IMG/VR virus record: IMGVR_UViG_3300042541_001760 | Coordinates: 197,053-261,052 of that record | Reading direction: 5' to 3' (one strand) | DNA from: a virus | DNA: 64,000 bases | Shown here: piece after piece, positions 3,449-61,094 of the stretch | Layout of the letters: each line of letters begins with the position of its first letter | Position numbering within the stretch: the first letter of the stretch is position 1 | Notes under the pieces: model-generated | What the model was told of the DNA's origin: nothing | Databases searched by the model: none | Seen by the model: the letters and a program-made list of their open reading frames with translations, nothing else | Position numbers and translations under genes: made by a program

Positions 3449-3634
3449 ATGGAAAATATCGTAGAAACACTATTCGCAAAAGACAACTCAAAACCTGAAG
3501 GTGAGTGTAAAACATGTAAAAATAAAGTCAACCCGTTACAAAGTGGTTTAATTTGGTTCTCAGTTTGGATGTTAATAATGTCATTATATGGTCACGTAGT
3601 TTTTTTTAAAAAAATATTTGGTCTTATTTTTTAA
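3449..3634 (+). CDS. Small membrane protein with a CxxC motif
   Basis: 61 aa from the ATG at 3449. An in-frame ATG at 3425 would add eight residues, but the N-terminal sequence M-E-N-I-V-E-T looks like the natural start. The soluble N-terminus contains C-K-T-C and is followed by one hydrophobic stretch (L-I-W-F-S-V-W-M-L-I-M-S-L-Y) that could span the membrane, then a basic end. It is one of the few plus-strand genes, and its 3' end overlaps the convergent DnaJ gene by 11 bases. No family recognised. Alternatives are a small inner-membrane effector or a superinfection protein; neither is supported directly. Confidence 0.6.
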   Translation: MENIVETLFAKDNSKPEGECKTCKNKVNPLQSGLIWFSVWMLIMSLYGHVVFFKKIFGLIF

Positions 3635-4568
3635 ATCTGACATTCAATCTGACATACATATCCCCTAACCCGTTGTTCCTGAACCCCTTTGATTTTAATC
3701 TTAGGGGTTTTGTTGTATCAAACTCATCTGGCATCTTAATAGCCAACTTACCATCAGGGTGTGGTATCTCAAAACTATCCGACTTTAACTCATCAAGATT
3801 AAAAAACTTATTGTATATGAGATCGTTATTAACCTTCTCAAAATCTTCCAATGGTTGGACATTAAATTTTATGAGTAAGTTACCATAACTACCATTTATA
3901 AAATCCCCTTTACCTTGAGCCTTAATGAATTGTCCATTATCAATTCCGTGAGGTATGGCAATATTAATTGAGTCCATCATATCTTTTGTTCCTGAACCAA
4001 CACAAGAGTGGCAGGTGGTCTTAAATGTAAATCCTCTACCACCACATCCATTACAAGCGGTTCTAACCATCTGAACAAACATACCGGTACCTACTCTTTG
4101 TGTTATTGATCCGGCGCCACCGCACATTCCACATTGTATCCTTTCTCCACCACTACCACTACAATCCTGACATTGGTGTTTTCTATTATATACTATATTT
4201 TTTTGAGCTGACTTATATGAATCCAATACACTTATATTAACATCAACCACTTTATCAGGGGCTTGTCTTTGTTGTTGTTGGGGATTACCTCCACGACCAC
4301 CACCGAAGAACTGAGCAAACAAATCTTCCATAGATCCACCTCCACCACCAAATCCTGCCATTGGGTTGTTTCTTTGGTTATCGTATCGTTTTCGTTTATT
4401 ATCGTCTCCAATCGTATCATAAGCCTGAGCAACCTCCTTGAATATATTCTCATCCCCTCCTTTATCGGGGTGATGCTCAACCGCTTTCTTCCTATACGCT
4501 TTTTTTATTTCATCTTGGGTTGCGGTTTCGGAAACTCCTAACACTTCATAATAATTGGGTTGTGCCAT
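3624..4568 (-). CDS. dnaJ: DnaJ/Hsp40 co-chaperone
   Basis: 314 aa, slightly shorter than bacterial DnaJ. The J domain (1-65) has the H-P-D tripeptide at 33-35 that stimulates DnaK ATPase. It is followed by a Gly-rich linker with a Gln run (about 70-105). A zinc-binding region has all four C-x-x-C-x-G-x-G repeats (133-140, 146-153, 172-179, 186-193), then the C-terminal substrate-binding domain. With every functional motif intact, the protein is likely active and would recruit the host DnaK to phage proteins during replication or assembly. The phage also carries ClpP at 55669. Presence of a complete type I DnaJ in a phage is uncommon. The start is the only ATG before the J domain. Confidence 0.95.
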   Translation of the reverse strand: MAQPNYYEVLGVSETATQDEIKKAYRKKAVEHHPDKGGDENIFKEVAQAYDTIGDDNKRKRYDNQRNNPMAGFGGGGGSMEDLFAQFFGGGRGGNPQQQQRQAPDKVVDVNISVLDSYKSAQKNIVYNRKHQCQDCSGSGGERIQCGMCGGAGSITQRVGTGMFVQMVRTACNGCGGRGFTFKTTCHSCVGSGTKDMMDSINIAIPHGIDNGQFIKAQGKGDFINGSYGNLLIKFNVQPLEDFEKVNNDLIYNKFFNLDELKSDSFEIPHPDGKLAIKMPDEFDTTKPLRLKSKGFRNNGLGDMYVRLNVRFKK

Positions 4569-22221: not shown

Positions 22222-22902
22222 ATGAAAAACTTATTTAATGATATCTCTCAAGATGAGAGAAACAGGATTTTGGAAATGCATAAATCCGCAACTAGAAAAA
22301 ACTATTTGTCAGAACAAACACCCGCTCCCGCACCTGCTCCTGCAACTGCTCCTGCGGCGGCACCTGCCGGGGTTCCTAAAGGTCCGGTTGGGGGTGTAAC
22401 TAAAAAACCTGCGGTAGTGCCAGGTGGTGATAAACCACAGGGTTCTGCGGGGATTTATAAAGAAATTGATGTCGAGACTTTCAATCCAAAATTTCAAATG
22501 TGCTGGAACGAAAACACTGCAAGTGGAAAAAAATACATTTCACTAAAACAAAAGGTTGAGAATGGGGATGATGAAGAGGAAAAATTGATGGTGTATAATA
22601 ATAACAATATTAGACAATCAATGTTTAATACCATTAACCAAGTTTATTTGAAGTCTCTAACTAAACCTATGAGTAGTGACGAGTTAGGCAGATTATGGAA
22701 CACCGTAAAAACTTACCCAATTACATACTATTTCACTGACCCGAAAGTACGACCAAGAGTGTCAAATACGATTTCATCAACTGTTGAAGAAGCAATAAAA
22801 AACGTTTATACGAATGAGAATGAAATGAAAATAGATTATTTGAATACGTTTAATTGCGCAATGAAGGGTATTCAAGGTGCTCAACCTACACAAGGTACTT
22901 AA
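22222..22902 (+). CDS. Candidate capsid-cargo protein with Pro/Ala linker
   Basis: 226 aa. The leader (31 residues, M-K-N-L-F-N-D-I-S-Q-D-E-R-N-R-I-L) is helical and ends N-Y-L-S-E-Q, so cleavage by a T4-type prohead protease is predicted after Glu31. A Pro/Ala linker (A-P-A-P-A-T-A-P) and a Gly/Pro stretch follow to residue ~72. The rest is globular, with two Cys and no known family. Its own plus-strand TATTTAT element and downstream terminator make it a one-gene unit. Virion packaging is inferred from the leader only. Confidence 0.78.
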   Translation: MKNLFNDISQDERNRILEMHKSATRKNYLSEQTPAPAPAPATAPAAAPAGVPKGPVGGVTKKPAVVPGGDKPQGSAGIYKEIDVETFNPKFQMCWNENTASGKKYISLKQKVENGDDEEEKLMVYNNNNIRQSMFNTINQVYLKSLTKPMSSDELGRLWNTVKTYPITYYFTDPKVRPRVSNTISSTVEEAIKNVYTNENEMKIDYLNTFNCAMKGIQGAQPTQGT

Positions 22903-59649: not shown

Positions 59650-59712
59650 AATTATAGTGATATATTTTTAATTAATCTAATGTTTTAATCCTCTTCCAAT
59701 CCTAAACGATGA

Positions 59713-60024
59713 TTATTGCCGAGAATCAAGTGGCATCACTCCCCTTAAATCATAAGACTTATCCAACCAATGTCCTAAAATTGATTTAGTTTCACGGGGC
59801 TTAAGACGAAATAACAATTCAAGTATTAACCAAATACGACCATAATCAATAAAAACCCATTCATTTTCTTTATCATATTCCATAACCATATTATCATTGG
59901 AATCAACATATAATATTAAGTTAGGATAACCTTTATGTTTTTTTAATGTTAAGTTACCATAGTGTATATTTAGCCACTTGATAACTACTCTTTCTAACTG
60001 ATTTTTATTTACCTGTATGTCCAT
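59713..60024 (-). CDS. Tandem paralogue copy 1, unknown family
   Basis: 103 aa. Shared family pattern: M-D-I-Q-V-N-K, L-E-R-V-V-I-K-W-L-N, G-N-L-T-x-K-K, Y-V-D-S, M-E-Y-D-K, Y-G-R-I-W, then L-F-x-L, S-I-L, W-L-D-K-S-Y-x-L-x-G-V. One of four copies in a row. No known domain, signal peptide or membrane segment. C-terminal tail is different from the others (M-P-L-D-S-R-Q). I recall relatives in other environmental T4-like phages, also in arrays. Confidence 0.75.
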   Translation of the reverse strand: MDIQVNKNQLERVVIKWLNIHYGNLTLKKHKGYPNLILYVDSNDNMVMEYDKENEWVFIDYGRIWLILELLFRLKPRETKSILGHWLDKSYDLRGVMPLDSRQ

Positions 60025-60114
60025 AAGTTAATCCTCTTCCAACTAAATTCACACTTTTAATATTTGCTTGTATGGTGTTACTCCCTCTAATTTGTAAGAC
60101 TCTTCCAACGGTGC
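60025..60114 (-). pseudogene. Remnant of a further tandem copy
   Basis: This 90-base gap holds, at 60074-60109, a 36-base perfect copy of the 3' end of copy 2 (60140-60175), 66 bases apart. The corresponding peptide ends W-L/E-E-S-Y-K-L-E-G-V. The rest of the copy is gone, so it is a decayed or partial paralogue end. Confidence 0.65.
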
Positions 60115-60432
60115 TTAATACACCTGAAATTGCTTGAAGGGTGTTACTCCCTCTAATTTGTAAGACTCTTCCAACCAAACCTTAATAATTGATTGAGTAT
60201 CTCTGTAGTTAAGATAAAATAGTGATTCAATTTTTAACCAAATTTGACCATAATTAATATAAACACGCTCAGTTTTCTTATCGTATTCCATCATAACTTC
60301 ATTACTTGGATTAACGTAAAATACTGAGTTAACGTAACCATTACGCTTCTTTGGTGTTAAGTTACCAAAGTGTTTATCTAGCCACTTGATAACTACTCTT
60401 TCTAACTGATGTTTATTCACCTGTATGTTCAT
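60115..60432 (-). CDS. Tandem paralogue copy 2, unknown family
   Basis: 105 aa, same pattern as its neighbours: M-N-I-Q-V-N-K, L-E-R-V-V-I-K-W-L-D, F-G-N-L-T-P-K-K, M-E-Y-D-K-K, W-L-E-E-S-Y-K-L-E-G-V-T-P-F. Its 3' end is duplicated in the remnant next to it. Substitutions among copies are spread over the surface-like residues, while the W-L and Y-x-x-I-W positions are kept. Confidence 0.75.
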   Translation of the reverse strand: MNIQVNKHQLERVVIKWLDKHFGNLTPKKRNGYVNSVFYVNPSNEVMMEYDKKTERVYINYGQIWLKIESLFYLNYRDTQSIIKVWLEESYKLEGVTPFKQFQVY

Positions 60433-60435
60433 AAG

Positions 60436-60771
60436 TTAATCCTCTTCAAACTTCATTAAACTACCAACCAATTGTAGAAGCGTTACTCCCTCCAAATTAT
60501 AAGTATCTTTCAACCATAAATTAATAATTGAATGAATTTCACCATATTTAAGGTGAAATAATGATTCAATCATTAACCAAATACGGGATTCACTAACCCA
60601 AAGATAGTTGTTTTTTTTATCGTAACCCATTAAAACCTCGTTATCTGAATTTACGTAAAATAATACATTAGGATTATCTTTACGTTTCTTTGGTGTTAAA
60701 TTACCGAAGTTTTTGTTTAACCACTTGATAACTATCCTCTCTAACTGCTCCTTATTTACCTGTATATCCAT
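60436..60771 (-). CDS. Tandem paralogue copy 3, unknown family
   Basis: 111 aa: M-D-I-Q-V-N-K, L-E-R-I-V-I-K-W-L-N-K, F-G-N-L-T-P-K-K, Y-V-N-S-D, W-V-S-E-S-R-I-W, L-K-D-T-Y-N-L-E-G-V-T. It has the longest C-terminal tail of the set (Q-L-V-G-S-L-M-K-F-E-E-D). It follows copy 4 by 17 bases, with the same short spacer sequence after each start. Confidence 0.75.
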   Translation of the reverse strand: MDIQVNKEQLERIVIKWLNKNFGNLTPKKRKDNPNVLFYVNSDNEVLMGYDKKNNYLWVSESRIWLMIESLFHLKYGEIHSIINLWLKDTYNLEGVTLLQLVGSLMKFEED

Positions 60772-60788
60772 AAGTTAATCAATCCCAT

Positions 60789-61094
60789 TCAAGCGTAGTC
60801 TGGTGTTACTCCACTCAATTTATAGGTCTCCTCCAACCATATCTTCATAATTGATTTAATGTCATCATACTTTAGGTGAAATATAGATTCAATTTTTGAC
60901 CAAACATATCTATAATGAATATAAACACTATCAGTTTCCTTATCGTATTCCATTACAACCTTATTATCTGAGTTTACGTATAATACGTAGTTAGGATTAT
61001 TTTTATGTTTCTTTTGTGTTAAGTTACCATAGTATAAGTTTAACCACTTAATAACAACTCTATCCAATTGATTTTTATCTACCTGTATGTCCAT
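60789..61094 (-). CDS. Tandem paralogue copy 4, unknown family
   Basis: 101 aa, first in transcription order: M-D-I-Q-V-D-K, L-D-R-V-V-I-K-W-L-N-L, Y-G-N-L-T-Q-K-K, M-E-Y-D-K, H-Y-R-Y-V-W, I-M-K-I-W-L-E-E-T-Y-K-L-S-G-V-T. It begins 3 bases after the stop of the Pro-rich gene and is probably co-transcribed with it. Confidence 0.75.
   Translation of the reverse strand: MDIQVDKNQLDRVVIKWLNLYYGNLTQKKHKNNPNYVLYVNSDNKVVMEYDKETDSVYIHYRYVWSKIESIFHLKYDDIKSIMKIWLEETYKLSGVTPDYA

Follow-up and report, generated by a model that had tools for sequence, protein, structure and literature searches.

Four small genes lie side by side near one end of the window, by which we mean the whole 64,000-nucleotide stretch of viral DNA analysed here, which forms the end of a virus record of 261,052 bases. 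The question raised by this locus is what multiplies these genes and which part of them is free to change. The original prediction read them as paralogues of an unknown family, diversified in an arms race with the host, for instance as inhibitors of variable host targets. We find that the end of each gene is at the same time a CRISPR-like DNA repeat.

Gene family and phage

All four genes are real open reading frames on the minus strand, supported by ORF calls and by the family alignment: paralogue A (60789..61094, 101 aa), paralogue C (60436..60771, 111 aa), paralogue D (60115..60432, 105 aa) and paralogue E (59713..60024, 103 aa). The motifs M-x-I-Q-V-x-K, K-W-L and Y-x-L-x-G-V, which had been proposed as shared elements, are among the 38 columns that are invariant in the four window paralogues. 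Identity to the first copy is 51–56%, a likeness far above chance.

The count of four copies is correct for the window but too low for the virus. In the 261,052-base record the family numbers 16 full copies plus a fragment. They form five clusters, every one on the minus strand, with six copies at 156.4–158.5 kb of the record, two at 177.0–177.6 kb, three at 188.4–189.4 kb, one at 192.8 kb and the four in the window. Copy number at the window locus varies among close relatives, as a comparison suggested by the original prediction shows, with three copies in the related loci L016 and L033 and four in L013 and in the window. Mosaic family copies are also found in relatives. An SmpB-like protein encoded by the phage (G000:C1:176298-176732, G000 being the record studied here) adjoins one family cluster, and another small tandem family with the common motif TAVEWLVEQL is found at G000:C1:149410-150510.

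Relatives of the family come from uncultured phage contigs only; INPHARED phages, PDB sequences and the 84,980 species genomes of bacteria and archaea that were scanned contain none. The phage is T4-like, with a gp32-like protein and a Peptidase_S77 prohead protease (E 2.4e-24). Since its ribonucleotide reductase is closest to the versions of Cellulophaga and Tenacibaculum phages, we infer that a Bacteroidota host is likely.

Protein fold and selection

No domain had been recognised from the sequence, and profile searches agree, with best E-values of 0.02 or worse in Pfam and PHROG, which is chance level. Neither Pfam, PHROGs, NCBIfam nor PADLOC contains a profile that matches the family above threshold, and no housekeeping structural family was found in these collections or among PDB sequences. 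A match to phrog_218 ('head closure') at 9e-4 was dismissed, as it came from 1 of 27 members. Models of defence and anti-defence systems give no match above chance, and nothing was found that shows the predicted inhibition of host targets.

AlphaFold, given a 26-row alignment, predicts the family domain with confidence (pLDDT 86.8, pTM 0.78) as a succession of helix, four strands, two helices and strand. Foldseek finds no match to this predicted fold in the PDB (best E 0.35). In the viral library BFVD it returns ten matches of probability 1.00. All are unnamed proteins from uncultured phages, and their accessions are neighbours. These relatives include A0A6J5L9L5, A0A6J5L5U3 and eight others, some of them 176–329 aa long; the longer ones may come from a single uncultured phage in which the domain is followed by translated repeats. 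A model of the domain with eight repeats is uninformative (pLDDT 32).

Purifying selection acts on the gene body, since orthologous copies in close relatives have dN of 0.005–0.040 versus dS of 0.023–0.247. The original prediction is supported in the tandem multi-copy organization, the lack of a recognised domain and the variable copy number, but arms-race diversification of the gene body is not supported; it is the 3′ tail that turns over fast. Distant members start with MKxIITESQ in place of MDIQVNKxQ, and a profile built without the N-terminus still recovers them (E 8e-17 and 1e-10).

Repeat-spacer units behind the genes

In the window, the 36 nt that encode the conserved C-terminus W-L-E-E-x-Y-K-L-x-G-V-T-P appear a second time after a gap of 30 nt. 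The Y-x-L-x-G-V element is therefore indeed shared by the paralogues, but it is not solely a protein motif, as it is also a 36-nt CRISPR-like DNA repeat. The general layout of a unit is a 36-nt repeat, then 29–30 nt that are not repeated, then another repeat that has decayed in most cases.

Paralogue D carries the most complete array of the window, all on the minus strand. Repeat 1 (GTTGGAAGAGTCTTACAAATTAGAGGGAGTAACACC, 60140..60175) is in frame with the gene and is followed by the 30-nt spacer S1 (60110..60139), which contains the stop codon of paralogue D. Repeat 2 (60074..60109) is identical to repeat 1 at 36/36 positions, and behind it lie the 30-nt spacer S2 (60044..60073) and a decayed terminal repeat (GTTGGAAGAG, 60034..60043) that immediately precedes the next gene. 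Over their first 10 nt, S1 and S2 share 8/10 positions, so this pair may stem from a partial duplication. The remaining copies, also on the minus strand, are simpler. Paralogue C ends in a 36-nt repeat (60479..60514), followed by a 27-nt spacer-like segment (60452..60478) and a decayed second repeat (GTTTGAAGAG, 60442..60451) before the next gene, while the repeat of paralogue E (59732..59767) is followed by a 30-nt spacer (59702..59731) and a decayed terminal repeat (GATTGGAAGAGGAT, 59688..59701). Paralogue A, too, has a 36-nt repeat as its 3′ coding end (60802..60837), and the ~17–30 nt behind it contain no clear second one. In most copies of this phage the second repeat is decayed or missing, and within a single phage the repeats vary widely from copy to copy.

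The pattern extends through the family. Using a criterion of at least 11/16 matches, a second repeat lies 28–31 nt after the first in 29/58 family units of this phage and its relatives. Dinucleotide shuffles give 0.2 such units, and two control offsets give 1 and 0. Spacers of 30 nt (32 cases) and 29 nt (22 cases) make up 54/74 extracted segments. Longer arrays are found in large related phages. The longest regular ones, L079/L082, contain seven near-full repeats and one decayed repeat with an exact 66-nt period and unrelated 30-nt spacers; four repeats are present in L083 and in L080/L081/L084/L085, and three to five in L037 and L017. Near-identical direct repeats at constant spacing, as expected of a CRISPR array, are thus found in L079/L082 and in the window pair. 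The spacers are of constant length and mutually unrelated, since within-array spacer likeness equals that of shuffled pairs (median score 10 vs 10).

In every array, the 3′ end of a family gene serves as the first repeat. Moving away from the gene, matches to repeat 1 (of 36) run 36,36,35,34,31 in L017, 36,33,34,33,24,16 in L080 and 36,36,36,35,34,36,33,20 in L079. Repeats near the gene are identical at 33–36/36 positions and decay rises with distance from the gene, the polarity of a CRISPR array that grows at its leader end and closes with a decayed terminal repeat. L080 also contains a second, strongly diverged array behind a family-like domain (reverse complement, 3533-4555). This array is much older; it has a 22-residue period (xxDxLENGVKxT), is open over about ten units and keeps the G-V motif with synonymous changes.

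Growth of the array can be followed at the window locus itself. The window reads R-S1-R-S2-R′, whereas L033 reads R-S2-R′ at the same position, with S2 matching at 29/30 positions; in L013, S2 is still recognisable. S1 is missing from both. Compared with these two relatives, the window contains a clean insertion of one gene-proximal 66-nt unit of repeat and spacer. L015, L011 and L016 carry different spacers at this locus, though their flanks are ~90% identical or more. Judged from these alignments, the differences form the pattern of CRISPR spacer acquisition.

Reading frame of the arrays

The repeat begins at the third base of a tryptophan codon, and a 66-nt unit therefore preserves the reading frame. 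In-frame stops are rare in 30-nt spacers (5/288 codons) compared with stops in the other two frames (37/608; Fisher p = 0.0035), and L079, L059 and L080 have no such stop in any of their 16 spacers. Because of this depletion the array seems to be translated, with predicted tail peptides of the type VEEHYKMGVTTT with variable tens. Avoidance of transcription termination could account for part of the depletion. The 29-nt spacers shift the frame, which means that not every array can be translated throughout; the second repeat then gives a W-x-x-x-T ending and a stop.

Search for CRISPR partners

A CRISPR array is further expected to come with cas genes or a host counterpart and with spacers that match foreign elements, and neither was found. 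Searches of eight phage records for Cas1 and of four for Cas2 found neither gene, and no Cas9 was found in the phages; a TIGR01865 match in this phage was rejected as Cas9, as it covers ~75 of 1070 positions and belongs to a 165-aa HNH-like protein. The one repeat core tested, TTGTARTGTT, has no bacterial array in 84,980 species genomes. Thirty-seven bacterial loci containing the core were discarded as counterpart arrays, being chance matches or unrelated repeats. Spacers match no foreign element in INPHARED, in the compared family loci or, for four spacers, in IMG/VR. Self-derived decoys were rejected too, as the whole records G000, G001, G013 and G014 contain no match beyond the arrays themselves. 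An Rfam search returned no CRISPR or other family, and consistent RNA structure or hairpins were not found in the repeats; a supposed likeness to Cas13b direct repeats is unsupported.

Comparison with known systems

The closest viral precedent is given by the Saccharolobus portogloboviruses SPV1 and SPV2 (PMC6858448), which likewise carry repeat-spacer units without cas genes and exchange spacers at one position between related viruses. Their mini-arrays are intergenic, have host-like repeats and leaders, and contain spacers that match related viruses. In the family described here, by contrast, the array starts with the coding 3′ end of a gene as its first repeat, and no host array with an identical or nearly identical repeat was found for the one core searched. 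RNA anti-CRISPRs and solitary repeat units (PMC10651486) also combine short CRISPR-like repeats with phage genomes that lack cas genes. Solitary units were identified through their likeness to known host repeats and lie outside ORFs, whereas the repeats of this family overlap ORFs, number several per genome and belong to arrays that grow.

In size and growth, the arrays resemble the type II-C and VI-B arrays of Flavobacteriia (PMC8092290), with 36-bp repeats, mostly 30-bp spacers and growth at one end. They differ in belonging to phages without cas1, cas2 or cas9, and in a repeat that is coding, varies between copies and has no bacterial match in the one test made. The internal head proteins of T4-like phages share with this family small tandem genes and, in distant members, a short N-terminal motif that is also found on unrelated proteins. 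Here, however, the window copies lack the cleavage-like glutamate, and the head proteins offer nothing comparable to the CRISPR-like tails. In the open-access literature we found no prior description of a coding CRISPR-like array on a multi-copy phage gene.

Interpretation

We tentatively favour the reading that the 3′ end of the gene is the insertion site of a CRISPR-adaptation-like integrase, probably host Cas1–Cas2, which rewrites the tail of the protein; it is a serious possibility that we hold at somewhat less than even confidence. What appears at the level of sequence is a set of 36-nt repeats, unrelated spacers of mostly 29–30 nt, decay distal to the gene and one gene-proximal gain. In each gene, a conserved folded domain of about 100 aa would be followed by 36 coding bases that double as the first repeat of the array. 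A Bacteroidota host would supply the integrase, a Cas1–Cas2 with a 36/30 ruler as in type II-C. This enzyme would read the gene end as a leader-repeat junction and duplicate that end around a foreign 30-mer, and each insertion would replace or extend the C-terminal tail by 10 variable residues followed by the 12-residue repeat. The outcome would be a constant domain with a hypervariable tail, the main effect being on the protein, while recombination between repeats would amplify and shuffle the gene copies and could in this way explain the cluster of paralogues.

Two bodies of work make host Cas1–Cas2 a fitting candidate for length, duplication and polarity alike. The II-C and VI-B arrays of F. 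columnare have 36-bp repeats and acquire spacers of 28–32 bp, mostly 30, and the VI-B array is served in trans by the II-C Cas1–Cas2 (PMC8092290). In type II-A, Cas1–Cas2 sets the repeat length by a ruler and also integrates off-target at sites that resemble leader-repeat junctions (PMC6895254). With more reserve, we suggest that the phage family may have made its own 3′ end a target of spacer integration, with the gene as leader and foreign 30-mers translated as hypervariable C-terminal tails. We prefer an effect on the protein tail to a use as guides because the repeats are variable, unstructured and without bacterial counterpart for the one core, because no targets were found, and because of the frame data. 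Arrays are known as non-coding guide stores; if coding arrays are translated, the CRISPR adaptation reaction can also edit proteins.

Guide use would mean virus-borne mini-CRISPR arrays, whose spacers would be directed against rival phages or other elements, or RNA anti-CRISPR decoys, with transcribed repeats that are used by or jam a host effector, the protein being perhaps secondary or a companion. The arrays are like known viral mini-arrays in geometry, polarity, spacer turnover and the lack of cas genes in the virus. One list of candidate RNA anti-CRISPRs names about two thousand viral repeat units (PMC10651486), and coding repeats would have escaped it because the search masked ORFs. Phages would then hide CRISPR decoys inside genes, where ORF-masking repeat finders do not look. 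Known viral mini-arrays, however, have host-identical repeats (PMC11656645), and the failure of the one core tested to find a bacterial array, the lack of protospacers in INPHARED and, for four spacers, in IMG/VR, and repeats that vary widely within one phage and form no consistent RNA structure speak against guide or decoy use, which we regard as a plausible but less likely reading. We regard it as quite unlikely that the CRISPR likeness is accidental and that a 22-residue protein repeat was multiplied by slippage or recombination, with the ten residues between motifs diverging quickly under selection. The old second array of L080, the depletion of in-frame stops and the part of the first 10 nt shared by S1 and S2 would all fit such a history. 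It is contradicted by the young arrays, which keep repeats at 33–36/36 while their 30-nt segments are no more alike than shuffled ones, since duplication would copy repeat and spacer both. Many units are moreover 65 nt long and shift the frame, which takes the second repeat out of the coding frame of the first, and the window insertion is one precise gene-proximal unit.

The original prediction of anti-host effectors, with the arrays as by-products of recombination, draws on the 16 copies in five clusters, their variable number, the mosaic copies in relatives and the lack of a housekeeping match. We consider it improbable, given gene bodies under purifying selection and no match above chance in defence or anti-defence models, and it leaves the repeat-spacer arrays unexplained. 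Equally improbable in our judgement is a role as virion-packaged internal proteins like those of T4, in which the MKxIITESQ start may be a capsid-targeting tag cleaved by a T4-type prohead protease. The domain-only profile ties members with an MKxIITES-type start to the family, the phage has the S77 protease, and similar N-termini occur on unrelated proteins of the phage; yet the window copies have V-N-K or V-D-K at the cleavage-like site, [LIV]-x-E being confined to distant members, and the family clusters are not among head genes.

Short N-terminal tag families that end near [LIV]-x-E were observed on unrelated proteins of this phage, namely MKKVIRLTESDLTRLVKRVxxE, MNLQENIQRIQEVMGLNE and MKxIIxESQ. 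Given the S77 prohead protease, these tags look like capsid-targeting sequences. They occur at G000:C1 46932, 65958, 104926, 131388, 138650, 139059, 141047 and 143190, at 22222-22902 of the window and at other sites. Two annexin-like proteins (124470 and 139059) bear different N-terminal tags.
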